From a virus, in IMG/VR virus record IMGVR_UViG_3300037961_002898, positions 795 to 20,809 of that record: a stretch of 20,015 nucleotides of DNA; one strand, given 5' to 3'. The notes under the pieces are model-generated. The model saw only the letters and a program-made list of their open reading frames with translations. It ran no database searches and was not told the DNA's origin. This document shows positions 4,445 to 14,842 of the stretch, one piece after another. Every line of letters starts with the position of its first letter. The stretch's first letter is position 1. Position numbers and translations under genes: made by a program.

Positions 4445-5518
4445 ATGAAGACAGCTATAATCTTTGGGATAACAGGACAAGATGGAAGTCACTTGGCGGA
4501 CTTGCTACTAGAAAAAAACTATAAAGTTACGGGCGTTACAAGAAGAACGAGTACGGACAACACGACACGTATTTCGCACATACTTAATAACAAAAATTTC
4601 AGACTAGCAAGCGGCGACATTACAGATGCATCCAGTGTTTTAAATATACTTAGAGAACACGAACAAGTAGATGAAGTCTATAATCTTGCAGCACAATCGC
4701 ACGTTGCAGTTTCATTTAAGCAACCCGGATTAACTTGGGACATAACAGGAAAAGGTTGTTTGAATATCCTACAAGGGTTGGTAGATCTAAACATGTTAGG
4801 TGCTAGATTTTATCAAGCAAGCAGCAGTGAGATGTTTGGAAAAAATTATGATGTTGAATTAGGGATGACTACTGAAAGCAAATATCAAAATGAAGAGACT
4901 AAGTTTTTGCCGCAAAGTCCATATGCTATTGCTAAATGCGCTGCGCACTATATGACTGCTTTATATAGGGATGGTTATGGAATACATGCAAGTGCCGGTA
5001 TACTATTTAATCACGAAGGACCGCGAAGAGGAGAAACTTTCGTAACAAGAAAAATCACAAAATGGATTGGTGACTTTGTTAAATGGATGAACTCGTTAAA
5101 CATAAGTTACGCAGACCTTTCATCAGCATGTGAAGAAGGAGATTCCCTGTTTGCATCTGGAGTTCAGTACAGTTTTCCAAAATTAAGATTAGGAAATTTA
5201 GACGCATACCGAGATTGGGGTTATGCGGGAGACTACTGCGAAGCAATGTGGATGATGCTGCAACAAGATGAAGCAGACGATTATGTTATTTGCACTGGCG
5301 AAACGCATACTATTAGGGAATTTCTTGATGTCGCTTTTAAAGAAGCAGGTATAACAGATTGGTCTAGTTGTGTTATCCAAGATCCAGAGTTCTATAGACC
5401 AGCAGAAGTTGACTACCTTAGAGGCGATTGTAGCAAAGCAAACACTAAACTGGGATGGACACCTAAACATAGTTTTGAAGATCTAGTAAAAATGATGGTA
5501 AAGCATGATCTAGAATGA
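4445..5518 (+). CDS. gmd: GDP-mannose 4,6-dehydratase
   Basis: Converts GDP-D-mannose to GDP-4-keto-6-deoxy-D-mannose, precursor of GDP-fucose, GDP-rhamnose, GDP-perosamine and related sugars. It is a complete extended short-chain dehydrogenase: NADP-binding GITGQDGS at residues 8-15, the SSSEMFG catalytic segment at 126-132, YAIAK with Tyr160 and Lys164, the RRGETFVTRKIT substrate segment at 194-205, and RLGNLDAYRDWGYAGDY at 248-264. All catalytic residues are present. The region between the KIT helix and RLGNLDA (about 214-246) is about 30 residues longer than in typical enzymes. A ribosome site AAGGA precedes the ATG one base after the preceding stop. No epimerase/reductase is nearby, so the end sugar must come from host or other phage enzymes. 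Confidence 0.93.
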   Translation: MKTAIIFGITGQDGSHLADLLLEKNYKVTGVTRRTSTDNTTRISHILNNKNFRLASGDITDASSVLNILREHEQVDEVYNLAAQSHVAVSFKQPGLTWDITGKGCLNILQGLVDLNMLGARFYQASSSEMFGKNYDVELGMTTESKYQNEETKFLPQSPYAIAKCAAHYMTALYRDGYGIHASAGILFNHEGPRRGETFVTRKITKWIGDFVKWMNSLNISYADLSSACEEGDSLFASGVQYSFPKLRLGNLDAYRDWGYAGDYCEAMWMMLQQDEADDYVICTGETHTIREFLDVAFKEAGITDWSSCVIQDPEFYRPAEVDYLRGDCSKANTKLGWTPKHSFEDLVKMMVKHDLE

Positions 5519-6026: not shown

Positions 6027-6522
6027 GTACAAGACTGCTCCGGGGTACACTGTGGTTAGAGACACAAGAGAGCAGCAGGGATATTTCTTTAAAAAATTCA
6101 ATACGTGTCAAGGTACAGTACAAAGAAAACTTGATACTGGTGACTATTCTATACTGGGTATGGAAGAGAAGGTGTGCATAGAAAGAAAAGCAAGCGTATC
6201 AGAAATAGCGCTAAATCTAGGTAAGGGTAAATACGCCTTTTATAACGAAGTAGAAAGAATGAGAGAGTATGAACACAAGTTTATAATTTGTGAGTTTTCT
6301 ATGGAAGATGTTATGAAATTTCCAGAAGGCGCTAATATACCCAAAGAATTAAAAAACAAAGTGAAGATAACAGGAAAGTATATACTAAGATGCTTAATGG
6401 AGTTTGCAGTATTTAATGATGTACACGTTATATTCGCTGGTAGCGAAAGAGGAGCATTTGACCTGACAAGCAGTCTCTTAAAAAGAATTAACGAAAAGTA
6501 CACGATAGGGCGCAAATCATGA
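6019..6522 (+). CDS. ERCC4-type nuclease
   Basis: A 167-aa protein with the XPF/ERCC4 nuclease core: VRDTREQQGYF near residues 13-23 (D of the first motif), KLDTGDYSILG at about 37-47, and the hallmark VCIERKASVSE at about 52-62 (GD...ERK). In the common ERKxxxD form the last Asp is replaced here by Ser, with Glu next to it, so activity should be checked. No helix-hairpin-helix domain is visible at the C terminus, so it is a nuclease core alone. Related phage proteins are thought to cleave branched or flap structures during recombination and packaging. It overlaps the HNH gene by 8 nt and the ClpP-like gene by 4 nt, suggesting that all act on replicated DNA entering capsids or at expression of the same stage. 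Confidence 0.78.
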   Translation: MGKYKTAPGYTVVRDTREQQGYFFKKFNTCQGTVQRKLDTGDYSILGMEEKVCIERKASVSEIALNLGKGKYAFYNEVERMREYEHKFIICEFSMEDVMKFPEGANIPKELKNKVKITGKYILRCLMEFAVFNDVHVIFAGSERGAFDLTSSLLKRINEKYTIGRKS

Positions 6523-7130
6523 CAACGAATAGAGATAGCGTTGGTGAAATACATTCCTACAATATAGATGTAAAGAACAGAGAAATCTATATAAACGAGT
6601 TTGATGACTCTGGAGAAACTGGGGGTGTAGATCACAGGATGCTTCAGAATTTTATTAAAAACATAAACATATTAAAAAATCTAAGTAGAGATCCTATTAC
6701 CATACATATGCAAACGGTAGGTGGTTGCTGGTACTCCGGGATGGGTATATACGATGCCATTAAAAGTTGCAAATGTAAAACTACTTTTATTGGATATGGT
6801 CAACTATGCTCTATGGGTACTGTTATAATACAAGCTGCCAATAGACGTTTAATTACTGACAACTCTGCGTTTATGGTTCACTGGGGCAGTAGTGAGATAA
6901 GTGGCTACTACTTAACTGCACAAAACATTGCCGACTTTGAAAAATACACCGCACAACAAATGATAGAAATATATGCAGAAAGATGTCAAAGAGGAGATTA
7001 CTTTAAAGAACGTCAAAACAATTTATCTAAAACTAAAGCATACCTAAAAAGAAAACTAGGAGGGGGCGATTGGTATATGACAGCAGATGAGGCTGTATAT
7101 TACGGATTCGTCGATGGAATTTATAAATGA
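6519..7130 (+). CDS. ClpP-type serine protease (peptidase S14)
   Basis: A 203-aa ClpP-fold protein with an intact catalytic triad: Ser98 in GQLCSMGTVI, His121 in AFMVHWGSSE, and Asp184 in GGGDWYMTADEAV, followed by the conserved EAVYYGFVD end. The TVGGCWYSGMGIYDAI segment (about 66-81) matches the PGG-type oxyanion region and helix. No ClpA/ClpX-binding features are evident. Phage S14 proteins in this genomic position frequently serve as prohead proteases, but here another protease-like domain follows the portal gene, so its substrate is uncertain: it could process head proteins or degrade host proteins. ATGA overlaps join it to both neighbours. Confidence 0.85.
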   Translation: MTTNRDSVGEIHSYNIDVKNREIYINEFDDSGETGGVDHRMLQNFIKNINILKNLSRDPITIHMQTVGGCWYSGMGIYDAIKSCKCKTTFIGYGQLCSMGTVIIQAANRRLITDNSAFMVHWGSSEISGYYLTAQNIADFEKYTAQQMIEIYAERCQRGDYFKERQNNLSKTKAYLKRKLGGGDWYMTADEAVYYGFVDGIYK

Positions 7131-9118
7131 GTAAAGAATTAAAACAAATTGATGAAGCATGGTTGAAAATAGATGTAGACGAAAATAGTTTGTTTGACCC
7201 AACTTCTATATTGAAATCATCAGAAGACGATTTTCATCTTAAACTTACTTGGTTGATGACTAGACCAGAGTATTTTTCTTTCTTAGTAAAACAAATATTC
7301 AACATACAACTCCTGCCATCTCAAGCTCTTATTCTATATGAATTGTGGAACCGAAAGTTTCCTATGCTTATAGCAAGTCGTGGTTTTGGTAAATCCTTCA
7401 TGCTATCTCTATATTGTATGCTGAGAGCGCTTATACTTCCGGGTAGAAAGGTTGTAGTCGTAGGTGCTGCCTTTAGACAATCTAAAGTTCTTTTTGAGTA
7501 CATGGAAACCATTTGGAACAATTCTCCAATTCTAAGGGATATATGCGATGGAAACTCTGGACCCCGTAGAGATGTTGATCGTTGCGTTATGCGTATTAAT
7601 GATTCAAGGGTCACTTGCTTACCTCTTGGTGACGGGCAAAAAATTAGAGGTCAAAGAGCTAACGATATTATTAGCGATGAATTTGCTTCCATACCTCGCG
7701 ATATCTTTGAGACGGTTGTTGCAGGTTTTGCTGCCGTAAGTTCAGACCCTATCGAGAATGTTAAACGTCTTGCCGCAGAGAAGAAAGCAAAAGAACTAGG
7801 AGTAGAAATACAAAACAAAGATGAAAATAAACTAGAAGACAAGGATAACCAAATTATATTAAGTGGTACTGCTTACTATGATTTTAATCACTTTGCGACC
7901 TACTGGAAAAGATGGAAGTCTATAATAAAAAGCAAAGGCAATCCAACAAAATTAAGAGAAGTCTTTGGTGGCGAAGACGTACCAGAAAATTTTGACTGGA
8001 CTGAGTACTCTATTATGAGAATACCTTACGAACTTTTACCAGAAGGTTTTATGGATGCCTCACAGGTCGCCAGATCCAAGGCAACAGTTCACGCTGGTAT
8101 TTATCAAATGGAATTTGGAGCAGTTTTTACGCGCGACTCAGAGGGGTTTTTCAAGAGATCCTTGATAGAATCCTGCGTAGTGGACGATAAAGACCCAACA
8201 AAAGACTCTAAGGGTAACGAAATTATCTTTGAGGCAAAACTTATGGGCGACCCTAAAAAGAAATATATATTTGGCGTTGACCCAGCATCTGAGGTTGACA
8301 ATTTTAGTATAATTGTATTAGAGTTAAACGAAGATCATAGACGTATAGTACATTGCTGGACTACCAATAGATCAGAACATAAAGAAAAAGTTAAAAGAGG
8401 TTATTCCACTGAGACGGACTTTTACTCTTATTGCGCTAGGAAAATACGAGATCTTATGAGACTTTTCCCTTGTGTTCATATTGCTATGGATGCTCAAGGT
8501 GGTGGTATCGCAGTCATGGAATCTTTGCACGATAAAGATAAACTACAGGATGGAGAGATAGAAATCTGGCCCGTTATTGACGAGGATAAACCAAAAGACA
8601 CAGACGATCAACGTGGATTGCATATACTAGAAATGTGTCAATTTGCCAAATACGACTGGTTAGCAGAAGCGAATCACGGACTCAGAAAAGACCTAGAGGA
8701 CAAAGTTATACTATTTCCTAGATTTGACTCAGTTACAGTTGGTATATCAAATATAGAAGATGGTATGAAAGGTAGGATGTACGACACTCTAGAGGAGTGT
8801 GTCATGGACATAGAAGAACTTAAAGACGAGTTATCTATGATACAGATGACCCAAACATCTAATGGTAGGGATCGCTGGGATACTCCAGAGGTTGTTGTTG
8901 CTGCTGGAAAGAAAAGCAAAATGAGAAAGGACAGGTATTCGTCTTTGATTATGGCGAATATGGCGGCAAGAAAAATAGCAAGAACTCCAACCCCAGAGGC
9001 ATACGAATTCTTTGGAGGATTCGCAGGTTCTTTACCAAGTCAATCAAAACAGAAAGGTGATGGTAAACTGTACAATGGTCCAAATTGGTTTACGGAAAAC
9101 ATGAAGGATATTTATTAA
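7127..9118 (+). CDS. Terminase large subunit
   Basis: ATP-driven DNA packaging motor with nuclease. Residues about 84-90 (SRGFGKS) are the Walker A loop; IISDEFA at 181-187 is Walker B with the catalytic Glu185; ILSGTAYYDF near 244-253 fits the coupling motif. The RNase H-like nuclease domain follows: FGVDPA with Asp385, IAMDAQGGG with Asp455, and a late Asp in RKDRYSSLIMANMA near 605. At 663 aa it is somewhat longer than T4 gp17 (610 aa); the extra sequence includes a charged insert around 214-240 (KKAKELGVEIQNKDENKLED) between Walker B and motif III. Start overlaps the ClpP-like stop by 4 nt. Identity is clear from motifs and from position before the portal gene. Confidence 0.95.
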   Translation: MSKELKQIDEAWLKIDVDENSLFDPTSILKSSEDDFHLKLTWLMTRPEYFSFLVKQIFNIQLLPSQALILYELWNRKFPMLIASRGFGKSFMLSLYCMLRALILPGRKVVVVGAAFRQSKVLFEYMETIWNNSPILRDICDGNSGPRRDVDRCVMRINDSRVTCLPLGDGQKIRGQRANDIISDEFASIPRDIFETVVAGFAAVSSDPIENVKRLAAEKKAKELGVEIQNKDENKLEDKDNQIILSGTAYYDFNHFATYWKRWKSIIKSKGNPTKLREVFGGEDVPENFDWTEYSIMRIPYELLPEGFMDASQVARSKATVHAGIYQMEFGAVFTRDSEGFFKRSLIESCVVDDKDPTKDSKGNEIIFEAKLMGDPKKKYIFGVDPASEVDNFSIIVLELNEDHRRIVHCWTTNRSEHKEKVKRGYSTETDFYSYCARKIRDLMRLFPCVHIAMDAQGGGIAVMESLHDKDKLQDGEIEIWPVIDEDKPKDTDDQRGLHILEMCQFAKYDWLAEANHGLRKDLEDKVILFPRFDSVTVGISNIEDGMKGRMYDTLEECVMDIEELKDELSMIQMTQTSNGRDRWDTPEVVVAAGKKSKMRKDRYSSLIMANMAARKIARTPTPEAYEFFGGFAGSLPSQSKQKGDGKLYNGPNWFTENMKDIY

Positions 9119-9135
9119 TTTGTGTATAATACAAT
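9119..9135 (+). promoter_or_regulatory. Late-type promoter element TGTGTATAATA before portal gene
   Basis: TGTGTATAATAC (9121-9132) has a perfect TATAAT at 9125-9130 but no TTGACA-like box 16-18 nt upstream. The same element, with one variable base, lies before the protease and 163-aa genes. Leader of about 38 nt, ending AAGGAACCCG before the ATG. Confidence 0.55.
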
Positions 9136-9174: not shown

Positions 9175-11169
9175 ATGAATAAAGATAAATCTTTGATAAC
9201 TTGGAATGATTCTGACGCTTCAAGTAAAGCGGTTGCGTTTGATCAGTTCGCAAAAGCAGGTGAAGATTACGCAGGCATAACCAAGGCTAATCATCTTAGA
9301 GACTTTAAAGACATAGAGTCAAACAGATCTGTTCGTCCGGGTTTTAGAACATCTGATTATCACGCATTTAGACCAGAAGAACGAGTTCCTTATAGGCAAA
9401 AACGTGCTATAAAAATGTGCATGGATGCCTACGAAAAGGTTGGAATTATTAGAAATGTAATTGACCTTATGGGTGATTTTGGATGTCAAGGCATAAACAT
9501 AGTACACGAAAACAAAAGCGTAGAAAAGTTCTATCAACAATGGTTCAAGAAGTGTAGCGGTAAAGAAAGGTCAGAAAGATTTTTAAATTTACTATACAGA
9601 TCTGGTCAAGTTCCTGTGTACAGAAGTTATGCTAACTTGACACCAGAGGTTGTAAAGTATGTTAAATCAATTGGTCAAGATATAACTGTAGAAGTACCCA
9701 ACTTTGAAAAGAACCAAATACCTTGGCGATATAATTTCTTTAACCCCGTGTCGCTTGATATTAAAGATAGTAACATAAACCTATTCTTAGGCACGAAAAA
9801 TTTTCAGATATCACCTTCAAGTTTTTTAGACAACTTTAAAGATGGTTCTATCCCTGCGCATATGCTGGACACTCTTCCGGTAGACATAAAAGAGAGAATC
9901 AAGAACGGAGAAAGGAAAGTAACGCTAGATCCAGAAAGACTTTCTATGTTTTATTACAAGAAAGACGACTGGTCTAACTGGGCAAACCCCTTGATTTACG
10001 CAATCCTTGACGATGTAATAATGCTAGAAAAGATGAGACTTGCTGACTTGTCTGCCTTGGACGGTGCGATCTCAAACATCAGATTATGGACTCTTGGTAA
10101 TCTAGATCACAAAATCCTACCAAATAAAGCTGCTATTAATAAACTTAGAGACATACTAGCAAGCAATGTTGGTGGAGGTACTATGGAGTTAGTTTGGGGT
10201 CCAGAACTTTCTTACACAGAGTCAAATAGTCAAGTGTACAAGTTTTTAGGTTCAGAAAAGTATAATTCTGTCTTGAATAGTATTTATGCTGGTTTGGGAG
10301 TTCCTCCTACTCTTACGGGTATGGCAGGTAATGGCGGTGGTTTTACAAATAACTTTATATCGCTCAAAACTCTTGTAGAAAGATTGCAATACGGTAGAGA
10401 CCAACTAACCGCATTCTGGGAAAAGGAATGCGAGATAGTAAGAAAAGCAATGGGTTTTAGGAAGTCTCCTCATATAATGTACGATCAAATGAGTCTATCT
10501 GATGAGTCTTCTGAGAAAAACCTACTAATACAACTTGCTGATAGAGACATCATATCACATGAGACAGTACTTGAAAGATTTAAAGAAGTCCCTTCGGTTG
10601 AGAAAATGAGACTAAGGAGAGAAGATAAGTCTAGAGATGCAGAGACCTTACCAGAGAAAGCTGGACCTTTCCATCCTCCACCAGCACCTCAAGAGATGAA
10701 AGAAGAACCTCAAGTTGAACAAGTAGAAAAAACCAATGATTCTGAACCATCTGGTGGAAGACCTCTGTTTAAAAAAGACGAGGAACCTAGAAAGAAAAGG
10801 GTGGAAACACCAAAATCAAAACCCGGAGTTGCTGAACTAATAGTATGGGCAAATGCTTCTTTTGATAAGATATCTGAAATAACAAACGAGGCGTACTTGT
10901 CTGTAAAATCAAAAAAGAACATGAGATCTTTAAGTAAAGTAGAGGCGAAAGAATTAGAAGAGTTGAAGATTCATGTCCTATCTAATCTACAACCTATGTC
11001 CGAGGTAAATGTTGATAACGTCAGGAAGGTTATAGGTTCTACAAGAAAGATGCCCGAAAAACTCAAAAATCAACTTGACGCACTAAATATTAATTTAGAA
11101 AACATGAACATGGAAAACTTCAGAAGACATGCTATTTCATGCTACGTGGAGTGTTTTTTAGGCAGTTAA
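9175..11169 (+). CDS. Portal protein
   Basis: A 664-aa protein placed between TerL and the prohead protease, the standard portal position. It forms the dodecameric ring through which DNA passes. Features seen: N-terminal region with basic segments PYRQKRAIKMCMDAYEKVGI; a central stretch with KYNSVLNSIYAGLGVPPTLT and GGFTNNFISLKTLVERLQYG (about 360-405), typical of the portal stem/wing region in which a helix follows a gly-rich loop; and a C-terminal Pro/Glu/Lys-rich linker (about 495-545) before a final helical domain. The last 140 residues look like an added tail. Ribosome site AAGGA, 5 nt before the ATG, with its own promoter element upstream; the gene is not overlapped by its neighbours. 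Family assignment rests partly on position. Confidence 0.85.
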   Translation: MNKDKSLITWNDSDASSKAVAFDQFAKAGEDYAGITKANHLRDFKDIESNRSVRPGFRTSDYHAFRPEERVPYRQKRAIKMCMDAYEKVGIIRNVIDLMGDFGCQGINIVHENKSVEKFYQQWFKKCSGKERSERFLNLLYRSGQVPVYRSYANLTPEVVKYVKSIGQDITVEVPNFEKNQIPWRYNFFNPVSLDIKDSNINLFLGTKNFQISPSSFLDNFKDGSIPAHMLDTLPVDIKERIKNGERKVTLDPERLSMFYYKKDDWSNWANPLIYAILDDVIMLEKMRLADLSALDGAISNIRLWTLGNLDHKILPNKAAINKLRDILASNVGGGTMELVWGPELSYTESNSQVYKFLGSEKYNSVLNSIYAGLGVPPTLTGMAGNGGGFTNNFISLKTLVERLQYGRDQLTAFWEKECEIVRKAMGFRKSPHIMYDQMSLSDESSEKNLLIQLADRDIISHETVLERFKEVPSVEKMRLRREDKSRDAETLPEKAGPFHPPPAPQEMKEEPQVEQVEKTNDSEPSGGRPLFKKDEEPRKKRVETPKSKPGVAELIVWANASFDKISEITNEAYLSVKSKKNMRSLSKVEAKELEELKIHVLSNLQPMSEVNVDNVRKVIGSTRKMPEKLKNQLDALNINLENMNMENFRRHAISCYVECFLGS

Positions 11170-11195: not shown

Positions 11196-11210
11196 TTTGT
11201 GTATACTAAT
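11196..11210 (+). promoter_or_regulatory. Late-type promoter element TGTGTATACTA before protease gene
   Basis: TTGTGTATACTAATT (11198-11212) with TATACT at 11202-11207. No -35 box. Start near 11214 would leave a leader of about 11 nt that contains GAGGTG, the ribosome site for the ATG at 11225. Confidence 0.5.
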
Positions 11211-11224
11211 TGTAGAGGTGATAC

Positions 11225-12679
11225 ATGACAATAAAAATATTCCAAAACGAAATAAATGACGGCATTGGCGAACTCGTAAAGAGTACGGCTAGTGTTGCAT
11301 ACTGCGCTGAAGCAACGATCCAAAAGGAGATTCCTGAAGAGATTGTTGTAAAAGCAATTGCTGAAAATAAAGACCAAGTTGATCTATACTATCTAGAATC
11401 AGTTTTAGTGTCTTGCGGTTGGAACAAAAACGACGATGTGTTCATGCCAGAGGCGACTTGGGCGGCACGTAACACCCCAGAAGATAAACAATTCAATTTT
11501 ATGCACGATGAGAATGATATCATCGGACATATTACTGGTAGTTATGTCTTAGGCAAAGATGGCGTTGCTGTAGCAGATGACTCAGAAATGCCAGAAGACT
11601 TTGACATTATCACTCAAGCAGTTCTTTATAATAGTTGGACTAACAGCGAAAATAAAGAACGAATGGACAAAATCATAGCAGAGATAGAAGAAGGCAAATG
11701 GTATGTTTCTATGGAATGCCTATTTGCTGGATTTGATTATGCTCTGTCAAATGAAGATGGTCTAAAGAAGGTTCTAGCAAGAGATGAAGAATCTTCTTTC
11801 TTAACAAAACACCTTAGATCTTACGGCGGTAGCGGTGAATATCAAGGTTATAAAATTGGTAGAGCGTTAAAGAACATTGCCTTTTCGGGTAAGGGTCTTG
11901 TCTCTAAACCAGCCAATCCACGAAGTGTAATTTTAAAAAGTGTAGCTTTTAATTTAGATGGCGACTCTCAATTCGATATAGGAGAATTTAATATGTCAGA
12001 TAATTTACTTGAAAAGCAATTGGCAGAAGTTCGTGAAGAACTTGTTTCTGCTAAAGCTGAAAACGAAGCTATCAAGGCTAAAATTGAAGAAGCAAAAGAC
12101 AAAGAGTTTGCTTCTAAGGTAGAAGCTTTTGAGGCAACCGTAGAAGAAAAAGATGCAAGCATTGCAGAACTTGAAGAGAATATCAAAAGTTCACAAGCTC
12201 GTATCGCTGAGTTGGAAGATACTCTTGCTAAGTCGCAAGAAGAACTTACTGTCGCCATGAAAGAAATGGACGACATGAAGAAAAAAGCAAAAGTAGAAAA
12301 AAGAATGGCTGCTCTCGTAGAAGCTGGTTTCGACCAAGAAGAAGCAGAAGAGACACTTGCTGCTTTTGATTCTGTAAACGACGAAGCTTTCGATATTATC
12401 GTTGCAAAAATGTATGAAAAAGCAAAGAAAGACAAAAAAGAAGATGAAGCTGAAGCAGCGATGCCTCCAGCGCTTAAAGAAGCACTCGAAAAGAAGAAAA
12501 AAGAGAAGGAAGCAAAAGCCGATGAAGAGGCTGAAGCTGAAGTAACTCCAGAACTTCTTGAAGATGTCGAAACTTCTGAAGCAACTTTAATTGATGCTAC
12601 GGAGCAAGTAGACGAAGTAGAATCAACAAGAGCTAGCATTTCTGACTGGCTTTCAAATAACGTACTTTCAACTAAGTAA
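11225..12679 (+). CDS. Prohead protease-scaffold fusion
   Basis: Residues 1 to about 245 look like a herpesvirus/HK97-type prohead protease (S78/U9-like): NFMHDENDIIGHI provides His94, KWYVSMECLFAGF Ser162, and the domain ends with the characteristic FSGKGLVSKPANPRSVI segment. Residues from 257 on form a Glu/Lys/Ala-rich coiled coil of scaffold type (KQLAEVREELVSAKAENEAI onward), then a disordered acidic linker. One polypeptide therefore carries protease and scaffold; in related phages the scaffold is cut out after assembly. An internal ATG at 11993 with a strong ribosome site could make the scaffold alone. A GAGGTG ribosome site precedes the start. The His and Ser residues fit the family catalytic pair by position; third residue unassigned. 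Confidence 0.82.
   Translation: MTIKIFQNEINDGIGELVKSTASVAYCAEATIQKEIPEEIVVKAIAENKDQVDLYYLESVLVSCGWNKNDDVFMPEATWAARNTPEDKQFNFMHDENDIIGHITGSYVLGKDGVAVADDSEMPEDFDIITQAVLYNSWTNSENKERMDKIIAEIEEGKWYVSMECLFAGFDYALSNEDGLKKVLARDEESSFLTKHLRSYGGSGEYQGYKIGRALKNIAFSGKGLVSKPANPRSVILKSVAFNLDGDSQFDIGEFNMSDNLLEKQLAEVREELVSAKAENEAIKAKIEEAKDKEFASKVEAFEATVEEKDASIAELEENIKSSQARIAELEDTLAKSQEELTVAMKEMDDMKKKAKVEKRMAALVEAGFDQEEAEETLAAFDSVNDEAFDIIVAKMYEKAKKDKKEDEAEAAMPPALKEALEKKKKEKEAKADEEAEAEVTPELLEDVETSEATLIDATEQVDEVESTRASISDWLSNNVLSTK
11993..12679 (+). CDS. Internal in-frame scaffold protein (nested start), 228 aa
   Basis: Inside the protease-scaffold gene, ATG codon 257 is preceded by ATAGGAG with 8 nt spacing (11979-11984). 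The same ATAGGAG with 8 nt spacing precedes the decoration protein gene at 12700. The frame is that of the parent, and the ATG falls exactly at the junction between protease and coiled-coil scaffold. The predicted product starts MSDNLLEKQLAEVREELV, with no protease residues, and would be free scaffold, as in the nested scaffold genes of lambda (Nu3 within C). Expression is inferred from the ribosome site and the domain boundary only. Confidence 0.6.
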   Translation: MSDNLLEKQLAEVREELVSAKAENEAIKAKIEEAKDKEFASKVEAFEATVEEKDASIAELEENIKSSQARIAELEDTLAKSQEELTVAMKEMDDMKKKAKVEKRMAALVEAGFDQEEAEETLAAFDSVNDEAFDIIVAKMYEKAKKDKKEDEAEAAMPPALKEALEKKKKEKEAKADEEAEAEVTPELLEDVETSEATLIDATEQVDEVESTRASISDWLSNNVLSTK

Positions 12680-12699
12680 TCATAATAGGAGATTTAACT

Positions 12700-13185
12700 A
12701 TGGCTCTCAAAGCAGATAGATATGAAGAATCAACAGACATCAGCTTCTTTTATGATGCTGGTACTGCAACTCGCGGTGGCGTAGTTGCTCTTGATGCAAC
12801 GAATGCTTCAGGTGCAGCAATGGACCAAGGTGAGAATAAAGTCGCTTATGTCGCGGCAACAAAGAATAGCATTCCGGTTGGAGTTTTGCTTAACGATGTG
12901 GTCAATAAAGACCTAACAAGAACTCACCTTAATCAATATAAGGATGAAGTTCAAAAAGGCGGTAAGGTTACTGTACTTACCCGTGGTTGGGTTGTCACCA
13001 ATAACATCACTGGTAATCCCGGTGCTGGCGACATTGCGTATCTTGACGAGACCACAGCAGGTAACGTCGGAAATGCAAGTGACCTTAGTTACTCTTCTGG
13101 AGTAATGGCAGTTGGTCGCTTCATGACCAATCAAGACGCAGATGGTTATGCTAAACTTTACGTCAATCTTCCAAACCTTGGTTAA
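12700..13185 (+). CDS. Head decoration / capsid-stabilising protein
   Basis: A 161-aa beta-rich protein (ALKADRYEESTDISFFYD..., GGVVALDATNASGAAMDQG, VLTRGWVVTNNITGNPGAGD, and VGRFMTNQDADGYAKLYVNL) located between the protease-scaffold and major capsid genes. The segments RGGVV and KGGKVTVLTRGWVVTN resemble small capsid-surface proteins found beside major capsid genes of marine phages; I recognise the pattern but cannot cite the family number. It probably sits on the outer face of the capsid lattice and adds stability. ATAGGAG ribosome site at 8 nt. Only 23 nt separate it from the major capsid gene, so both are co-expressed at high level. No signal or membrane segment. Confidence 0.72.
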   Translation: MALKADRYEESTDISFFYDAGTATRGGVVALDATNASGAAMDQGENKVAYVAATKNSIPVGVLLNDVVNKDLTRTHLNQYKDEVQKGGKVTVLTRGWVVTNNITGNPGAGDIAYLDETTAGNVGNASDLSYSSGVMAVGRFMTNQDADGYAKLYVNLPNLG

Positions 13186-13208: not shown

Positions 13209-14216
13209 ATGTCATATACAGAAAGACCTAGCGAAGAATTTATTTCAGTACTTCGCAAATGTGGTGACTCCGATATGGAAGTCGCCCTTGCAGCACAAAG
13301 AGAATTTGCCAAGGCTTTGGAACTTCCTTTGCGTAAAGGCGTTCTTATCGGAAATATCCTCGGTAATATTTTCGAGACTATCAATGTAGAACCGGGCGGA
13401 AGCACTGAGTATCCTCTCGATTTGCTTTCTCCGGGACTTGAGGGTGAGCATGTTGCTTACACTAATCCGGGTCATGGTCGCGTTCCTGAGCGTGCAGTCG
13501 AAAGCGATTACGTCATGATTCCAACGTACAGCATTGCAAGTAGCATCGACTTCTTGCTCCGCTATGCTCGCGAAGCACGTTGGGACATTACTGCTCGCGC
13601 TATGCAGGTTCTTGAGGCAGGTTTTGTCAAGAAGATGAACGATGATGGTTGGCACACACTTTTGGCTGCTGGCGTTGATCGTAACATCTTGGTTTATGAC
13701 GGTGACGCAACTGCTGGTATGTTCTCAAAGAGACTTGTCAGCTTGCTTCAAACTGTCATGCGCAGAAATGCTGGTGGTAACACCGGAAGTGGAGATCGTG
13801 GTCGCTTGACAGACCTTTACGTTTCTCCAGAAGCGCTTGAAGATGTTCGCAACTGGGGTTTTGATCAGGTTTCTGATGCAACCAGAACTGCGATCTACAA
13901 TGCTGGTGGAGATGGCGCTCCTATCACCAATATCTTTGGTGTAAATCTTCACGACCTTGACGAACTCGGAGAAGGTCAAGAGTATCAAACTTTCTTTGAG
14001 AATGGTCTTGGCGGTTCTGTTCAAGGTAGTGACTCAGAACTTGTTGTTGGTCTTGACCAAGGCGCAAACGACAGTTTCGTTATGCCAATGAAGCAGCAAG
14101 TTTCTATTCACGAAGATCCTACCCTCCATCGTCAGCAGAGAGTTGGTTGGTACGGTTTCGCTGAACTTGGTTTCGGTGTCCTTGATAACCGTAGAGTTAT
14201 TCTCGGAAGCTTCTAA
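13209..14216 (+). CDS. Major capsid protein, HK97 fold
   Basis: A 335-aa protein at the expected place after protease and decoration genes. An N-terminal helical region (to about 40) is followed by NVEPGGSTEYPLDL and ERAVESDYVMIPTYSI, a typical N-arm/E-loop region, then the spine helix IDFLLRYAREARWDITARAM with VLEAGFVKKMNDDGW. LTDLYVSPEALEDVRNWG matches the common P-domain 'lyvsPe' strand-helix in HK97-type capsids, and the C-terminal VGWYGFAELGFGVLDNRRV is a conserved A-domain ending. No long N-terminal delta domain is visible, consistent with the separate scaffold. Strong ribosome site AGGAG; codons are more GC-rich than in the neighbours, as for highly expressed genes. A terminator follows immediately. 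Confidence 0.92.
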   Translation: MSYTERPSEEFISVLRKCGDSDMEVALAAQREFAKALELPLRKGVLIGNILGNIFETINVEPGGSTEYPLDLLSPGLEGEHVAYTNPGHGRVPERAVESDYVMIPTYSIASSIDFLLRYAREARWDITARAMQVLEAGFVKKMNDDGWHTLLAAGVDRNILVYDGDATAGMFSKRLVSLLQTVMRRNAGGNTGSGDRGRLTDLYVSPEALEDVRNWGFDQVSDATRTAIYNAGGDGAPITNIFGVNLHDLDELGEGQEYQTFFENGLGGSVQGSDSELVVGLDQGANDSFVMPMKQQVSIHEDPTLHRQQRVGWYGFAELGFGVLDNRRVILGSF

Positions 14217-14296: not shown

Positions 14297-14312
14297 ATGT
14301 GTATAGTAATAT
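14297..14312 (+). promoter_or_regulatory. Late-type promoter element TGTGTATAGTA after terminator
   Basis: ATGTGTATAGTAATA (14298-14312) with TATAGT at 14302-14307 and no -35 box. It lies right after the capsid terminator, so it would restart transcription for the 163-aa and fibre genes, leaving a leader of about 37 nt. Confidence 0.5.
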
Positions 14313-14350: not shown

Positions 14351-14842
14351 ATGTCAGCATTATCAGATTATGTAGAATCTGGTTTACTAGACCATATCTT
14401 TCGCGGGGGTTCTTTCCCCAAACCATCTTTTTTGTCAATTGCGCTGTGTAGCGGTACACCCTTAGACAATCAATCTGGTGTTGATATGGGAGAATTACCA
14501 CAATTTTACAGTGATGGCACAACGTCAACAGGTTACGAAAGAATTCTTATTGGTCCTCCTGCGGATTCTGGAGATTCTTTTTGGAAATTCTACGAAGAAG
14601 ATTACAATGTCGGTAGCGGAGTTATTAAAAATTGCGATAAAATCATATGGAATACATCAGCAAAAGACCCATCAAATACAGATTTTGGGTGGGGTTGGGT
14701 TTCCGGGATAGCAATAATGGATCACCATGAAGTTGGATCTGGCAATATAATAATGAGAGCTCAATTGGACAACCCAAGGATAGTTTATGCGGGTGACACA
14801 TTAATGTTTGATGCGGAAAAACTTCTCGTTAGCTTTAAATAA
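14351..14842 (+). CDS. Putative virion structural protein, 163 aa
   Basis: N terminus LSDYVESGLLDHIFRGGSF, then PSFLSIALCSGTP, matches a widespread phage structural family that begins 'LsdylE..ll.hvfrg..f..p..lyvaL'; members are encoded next to tail and fibre genes and their exact place in the virion is mostly unknown. The rest is beta-rich (IIWNTSAKDPSNTDFGWGW, then VSGIAIMDHHEVGSGNI). ATG at 14351 follows TAGGAG at 6 nt. It directly precedes the fibre gene with 8 nt between them, and may sit at the base of the fibre or on the head or neck. No Cys-rich or coiled-coil segment. Confidence 0.7.
   Translation: MSALSDYVESGLLDHIFRGGSFPKPSFLSIALCSGTPLDNQSGVDMGELPQFYSDGTTSTGYERILIGPPADSGDSFWKFYEEDYNVGSGVIKNCDKIIWNTSAKDPSNTDFGWGWVSGIAIMDHHEVGSGNIIMRAQLDNPRIVYAGDTLMFDAEKLLVSFK

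Follow-up and report, generated by a model that had tools for sequence, protein, structure and literature searches.

A conserved internal start suggests a nested scaffold product within a phage protease-scaffold gene

The window, the whole stretch of 20,015 nucleotides that was analysed, makes up almost the whole of a 20.8-kb virus contig from IMG/VR and carries a gene (11225..12679, + strand, 484 aa) that very probably makes two products in one frame, a full-length protease-scaffold fusion and, from a second internal start, the scaffold alone. Our preferred reading, to which we assign a probability of roughly 0.92, is that one promoter immediately before 11225 gives a single mRNA from which both the fusion and the nested scaffold are translated. 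Initiation at 11225 would give a 484-aa protein consisting of a prohead protease, a flexible linker, and a coiled-coil scaffold, and a second initiation at 11993 would give the scaffold by itself. Free scaffold together with the capsid protein would build the prohead core, and the fusion would join the assembly via the scaffold part common to both products, so that protease molecules are brought inside the prohead. Once assembly is complete, the protease would cleave the scaffold, which would then exit.

The arrangement would add a large uncultured lineage and two cultured phage groups, in which the corresponding genes are labelled “hypothetical”, to the phages that encode scaffold and protease-scaffold in one frame, with a start that is under selection at the RNA level. 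As gene callers overlook the short product, these phages would be left without an annotation for their main scaffold.

Gene anatomy and head module

Gene order, fold matches, and a structural model place an N-terminal protease and a C-terminal putative scaffold in one frame beside the capsid genes. The AlphaFold2 model, with 65 relatives as input (mean pLDDT 75, pTM 0.47), has strands that stop at residue 242, a stretch with pLDDT below 50 at residues 245-259, and a long helix at residues 261-366 (12005..12322, + strand). On the same strand, the protease domain spans residues 52-242 (11378..11950), and a hypervariable, poorly ordered linker, residues 243-256 (11951..11992), houses the candidate internal ribosome site. 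The original prediction had described an AGGAG 8 nt ahead of an in-frame ATG exactly at the domain junction. Such a Shine-Dalgarno (SD) sequence is found at 11980..11984 (+ strand), followed at that spacing by the ATG at 11993-11995, which is Met257 of 484, in frame with 11225, and opens a putative nested scaffold gene of 228 aa (11993..12679, + strand). Since the modelled strands run to residue 242, disorder follows, and the helix starts at residue 261, the internal start sits at the domain junction as had been proposed. From its position and form we infer that the C-terminal coiled coil is the scaffold. An antisense open frame of 223 aa (11968-12639, minus strand) lies over the coiled-coil part and is probably a by-product of codon composition.

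The fusion gene is preceded by TerL (7127-9118) and a portal-position gene (9175-11169), which is named from its position and from synteny with Bacillus phage Slash because the protein has no convincing family match. It is followed on the + strand by a decoration-position gene (12700..13185; PHROG 563, virion structural protein) and the major capsid gene (13209..14216; distantly similar to gp27, the major head protein of Bacillus phage G). The internal site had also been said to copy the sequence before the decoration gene, and the latter indeed has ATAGGAG, with its AGGAG (12687..12691, + strand) likewise 8 nt before the ATG. A separate ClpP-like gene (6519-7130; PHROG head maturation protease/ATP-dependent protease) adjoins TerL, though the likely head protease sits in the fusion.

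Relatives sampled

Relatives were gathered by IMG/VR scans and one scan of GTDB genomes. Each productive IMG/VR scan contributed the best 80 of at least 599 pattern matches, and the relatives are thus a sample of the lineage, of which at least 574 matching stretches occurred in one scan. Merging of identical core DNA reduced 231 fusion-encoding loci to 159 distinct ones. The 159-row alignment is made up of the window and 158 distinct loci with 51-100% identity to the window protein; locus L083 (37%) was kept apart because its junction cannot be aligned. Since the protein of locus L002 is identical to that of the window, the window is possibly counted twice. The rows share ancestry and are not independent trials, for which the parsimony counts given below correct only in part.

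Internal GGAG was counted from alignment positions in all 159 rows, and codon-level counts are from the first 123. Among these 123, both domains lie in one open frame in every examined row except for four that stop at a contig end (L070, L078, L080, and L088) and L025, whose frame is cut short by a stop at codon 432. The scans are less apt to catch relatives with split genes, so the absence of split genes is weak evidence.

Chance and conservation of the internal start

In one genome, the site is within chance: when the codons of the window gene were shuffled synonymously 5000 times, 1107 shuffles contained an in-frame GGAG-N5-10-ATG, 743 had one at Met257 itself, and TerL (residue 560) and the portal gene (residue 337) of the window each hold one. 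Single-sequence statistics were therefore dropped as evidence.

Across relatives, the aligned ATG is present in all 159 rows and has GGAG upstream of it in every one, versus 12 of 1584 other in-frame ATGs of the same gene. The spacing from GGAG to ATG is 8 nt in 157 rows and 5 nt in two. The comparison sites are less well kept, with the portal site at residue 337 found in 48 of 147 loci and the TerL site at residue 560 in 8 of 118. Judged from the alignment, conservation of the internal site is far beyond chance. Lack of the site where the fusion occurs had been named as an observation that would speak against the original prediction; the site is kept in every relative of this kind that was examined, in the aligned rows as well as in L083 and the phages Slash, Stills, and MaeS.

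The constraint lies on the bases themselves. The Gly253 codon is GGA in 123/123 rows, the highest uniformity among 16 other conserved Gly columns being 69%; on a FastTree tree, its third position requires 0 parsimony steps versus 19-41 in those 16 columns. Over 47 four-fold columns the mean is 29.6 third-position steps, and the next lowest value after Gly253 is 14 (same tree). Ile252 is encoded by ATA in all 92 rows that have it; of the remaining 31 rows, 28 retain an A before GGAG. Nucleotide by nucleotide, 0 parsimony steps were counted at GGAGA (positions -12 to -8) and at the ATG, and 7-21 at positions -7 to -1. The surrounding linker is hypervariable, with an amino-acid entropy of 1.89 bits; the values for the protease and the coil are 0.59 and 1.26, respectively. 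Four loci (L199, L209, L228, and L231) have Gly in place of the acidic residue, and their DNA reads AGGAGG; L215 and L217 retain the ribosome-binding sequence at a shifted place. As the SD is kept in a hypervariable linker despite altered residues and moved sites, the base sequence emerges as the selected trait, and the aligned sequences indicate that selection at the internal site keeps the bases and not the peptide.

These patterns bear on two explanations that do without internal initiation. T4 gp21 cuts after [L/I]-x-E, and the conserved I-G-E/D encoded at the site might be the cut site at which the protease separates itself from the scaffold, with free scaffold arising from cleavage alone and GGAG being incidental. 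The poorly ordered linker would suit such cutting, and of the 123 rows, 61 with IGE and 3 with LGE fit the gp21 rule. The remaining 59 do not (IGD in 30, KGD in 10, and others), yet all have GGAG, and a peptide motif leaves unexplained the fixed third base of GGA, the ATA codon, and the fixed ATG. Cleavage as the sole source of free scaffold is thus given very little credence, but a cutting site and an internal start may coexist. Alternatively, the SD-like sequence could slow the ribosome while the protease folds, with no initiation taking place, for which its location at a domain boundary would be apt. A pause needs no start codon, however, and the ATG is retained throughout the alignment at fixed spacing, even where the site has moved or the linker is altered, which makes pausing a highly improbable account. 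A second start, with its own candidate ribosome-binding site conserved at the junction under synonymous constraint, accounts for the pattern best.

RNA openness at the internal start is weakly above that of the rest of the gene (a median of 26% of positions are at least as open; 53 rows), and this weak signal was set aside as support.

Promoter-like motif and product amounts

Ahead of the full-length start lies the promoter-like sequence TTGTGTATACT (11197..11207, + strand), whose GTGTATA is conserved in relatives. In 152/159 rows, GTGTATA lies in the 60 nt that precede the full-length ATG, and in 114 of these it ends 18-20 nt before that ATG. No copy of it was found in the 125,160 bases of protease coding sequence, and from 400 nt before to 600 nt after the gene's stop it was seen in 1 of 141. 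An exact copy of the related sequence TTGTGTATAAT lies before the portal gene at 9120, and motifs of this type are probably the structural-gene promoter of the lineage.

The short product could also come from a transcript of its own begun inside the gene, as with herpesvirus UL26.5. A generic sigma-70-like match at 11361-11390 (+ strand) would be a candidate for such a promoter, but generic matches exceed those in shuffles across the region on both strands alike, and the conserved motif stands upstream of the full-length start and is absent within the protease part. A separate transcript is rated very unlikely, with the proviso that a promoter of another type may lie within the gene. With the motif upstream of the whole gene, the nesting looks translational, and one promoter before the fusion combined with two translation starts looks like the simplest reading of the sequence.

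The full-length start has a ribosome-binding-like AGAGGT (11214..11219, + strand), with GAGG in 143/159 rows. GGAG is found at 124/124 internal, 115/115 decoration, and 111/111 capsid starts, and at 4/124 full-length starts; TerL starts, located in 3 rows, were left out of this comparison. The original prediction also expected a larger amount of free scaffold than of fusion, for which SD strength gives no support and was rejected as a sign. Pairing energies with the anti-SD sequence are -10.1 kcal/mol for the full-length start versus -7.3 kcal/mol for the internal start in the window; averaged over 124 rows, the two starts are equal (-7.45 and -7.53 kcal/mol, respectively), and the internal start is the stronger of the two in 89 rows and the weaker in 35. 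An excess of free scaffold is plausible by analogy with lambda.

Sequences like TTGTGTATAAT lie at 9120-9130, 11197-11207, and 14297-14307, with 0, 1, and 2 mismatches, before the portal gene, the fusion gene, and the gene at 14351.

Protease fold

In the predicted model, the N-terminal domain is a barrel of the T4 gp21/herpes assemblin type with a conserved His and Ser. The VIA fold search matched it to the varicella-zoster virus (VZV) protease (Z 7.5; 116 residues, 3.2 A) and T4 gp21 (Z 7.3; 125 residues, 3.2 A); the top 34 rows were all herpesvirus or T4 gp21-type proteases, and other proteins appeared from Z 5.2 down. In BFVD the domain matched many phage prohead proteases, one of them gp19 of phage G (E 9e-8). 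Foldseek against the PDB was weak, its best match (E 0.035) being a herpesvirus protease. His94, Ser162, and His196 are invariant in 65/65 members, which suggests catalytic roles for the first two and makes His196 a candidate third catalytic residue.

Sequence searches did not recover this relationship. PHROGs and Pfam searches of the fusion gave no protease family match, the matches from sequence-family and PDB-sequence searches were for the most part to coiled coils or weak and of mixed kinds, with no prohead protease among them, and hhalign of phage G gp19 against the fusion profile gave no match although the predicted fold matches. Descent from an S49/ClpP-type protease such as lambda C was considered and rejected, as there was no protease family match in PHROGs or Pfam and the fold matches were to herpesvirus and T4 gp21 proteases.

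Distant relatives and cultured phages

The 78.8-kb contig of L083, placed in a Gemmataceae (planctomycete) bin, carries the same head module. The linker of L083 is unalignable, yet AAGGAG stands where its own coil begins, with an ATG 9 nt after GGAG. The L083 protein as a query gave no match among viral contigs and, against phages, short N-terminal matches only, within residues 37-98.

Through TerL, two cultured phages were reached, Slash from Bacillus and MaeS from Microcystis, both of which have the gene order TerL-portal-fusion-small protein-capsid-sized protein. The Slash gene (339 aa; L234 11928-12947), the MaeS gene (354 aa; L235 11927-12991), and that of Stills (L239 101-1123), a Bacillus phage 90% identical to Slash, are each annotated “hypothetical protein”. 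Slash_35 matched the fusion profile at 96% in hhalign (E 2e-9). The strongest internal SD of the gene lies at the junction in both, ahead of an ATG at residue 183 in Slash and a GTG at residue 201 in MaeS, and Stills retains AAGGAGG in an altered linker. The Slash and MaeS proteins differ from the window protein in being shorter, with 23-24% identity to it, and MaeS in its GTG start, whereas the internal SD start at the junction is common to the window and all three phages. All three genes resemble protease-scaffold fusions, each with an internal start that is missing from the annotation. To judge by order and size, the two genes that follow in Slash and MaeS are probably decoration and capsid genes. 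The genome note on Slash does not contain the words scaffold, protease, or capsid.

Comparison with known systems

In-frame scaffold starts in protease genes are already known from lambda and Mu, as is the overlap with a herpes-fold protease in UL26/UL26.5. What appears to be new is the nested scaffold start in this lineage and in Slash and MaeS, for which the base-level evidence is unusually clear; no description of it for the lineage or for Slash/MaeS was found in searches of open-access literature, in agreement with the novelty originally suggested.

The parallel originally drawn with lambda C/Nu3, whose overlap is the subject of a paper cited in PMC8508860, holds for the architecture and fails for the type of protease. 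In both cases, protease and scaffold share one frame with a nested scaffold, followed by decoration (D in lambda) and capsid (E) genes. Lambda C, however, is annotated as S49 family, whereas the window protease has the gp21/herpes-type fold, and no sequence relation between lambda C and the fusion was found. Mu I/Z, with which the Mu-like phage PaMx73 is grouped, is as good a parallel; here too, the proteins differ from those of the window and the likeness is one of architecture.

In herpesviruses, UL26/UL26.5 encode an in-frame protease and scaffold with a common C-terminus (PMC4498786), and the short product is made from a separate transcript with a promoter of its own (titles cited in PMC4498786). 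The UL26 protease fold matches that of the window protease, but herpesviruses use a separate transcript where the window lineage appears to use an internal ribosome site. It is conceivable, though we consider it unlikely, that the nested scaffold is an old inherited trait of the gp21/assemblin-type fusion, kept by internal ribosome entry despite turnover of the linker in uncultured phages, the planctomycete-binned contig, Slashvirus, and MaeS, and that UL26/UL26.5 is the same arrangement shifted from translation to transcription and not a case of convergence. An internal ribosome start in a herpes/T4-fold fusion makes a common origin with UL26/UL26.5 testable in cultured Slash.

P2 gpO is likewise a protease-scaffold fusion (PMC7552001). 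P2 O has no annotated nested gene, and the internal-SD scan finds no SD start at its junction, so such a fusion can manage without a detectable nested start. The two-polypeptide phage endolysins produce a full-length and a C-terminal product from one gene via an in-frame internal start (PMC9430671); their proteins and function are unrelated to the fusion, and the coding strategy is alike.

As a check on the method, the internal-SD scan ranked the annotated Mu Z start second. In lambda C (L236, 4900-7300), the strongest internal SD start was at codon 309 (approximately position 5342), and the nu3 start annotated at 5132 ranked lower.
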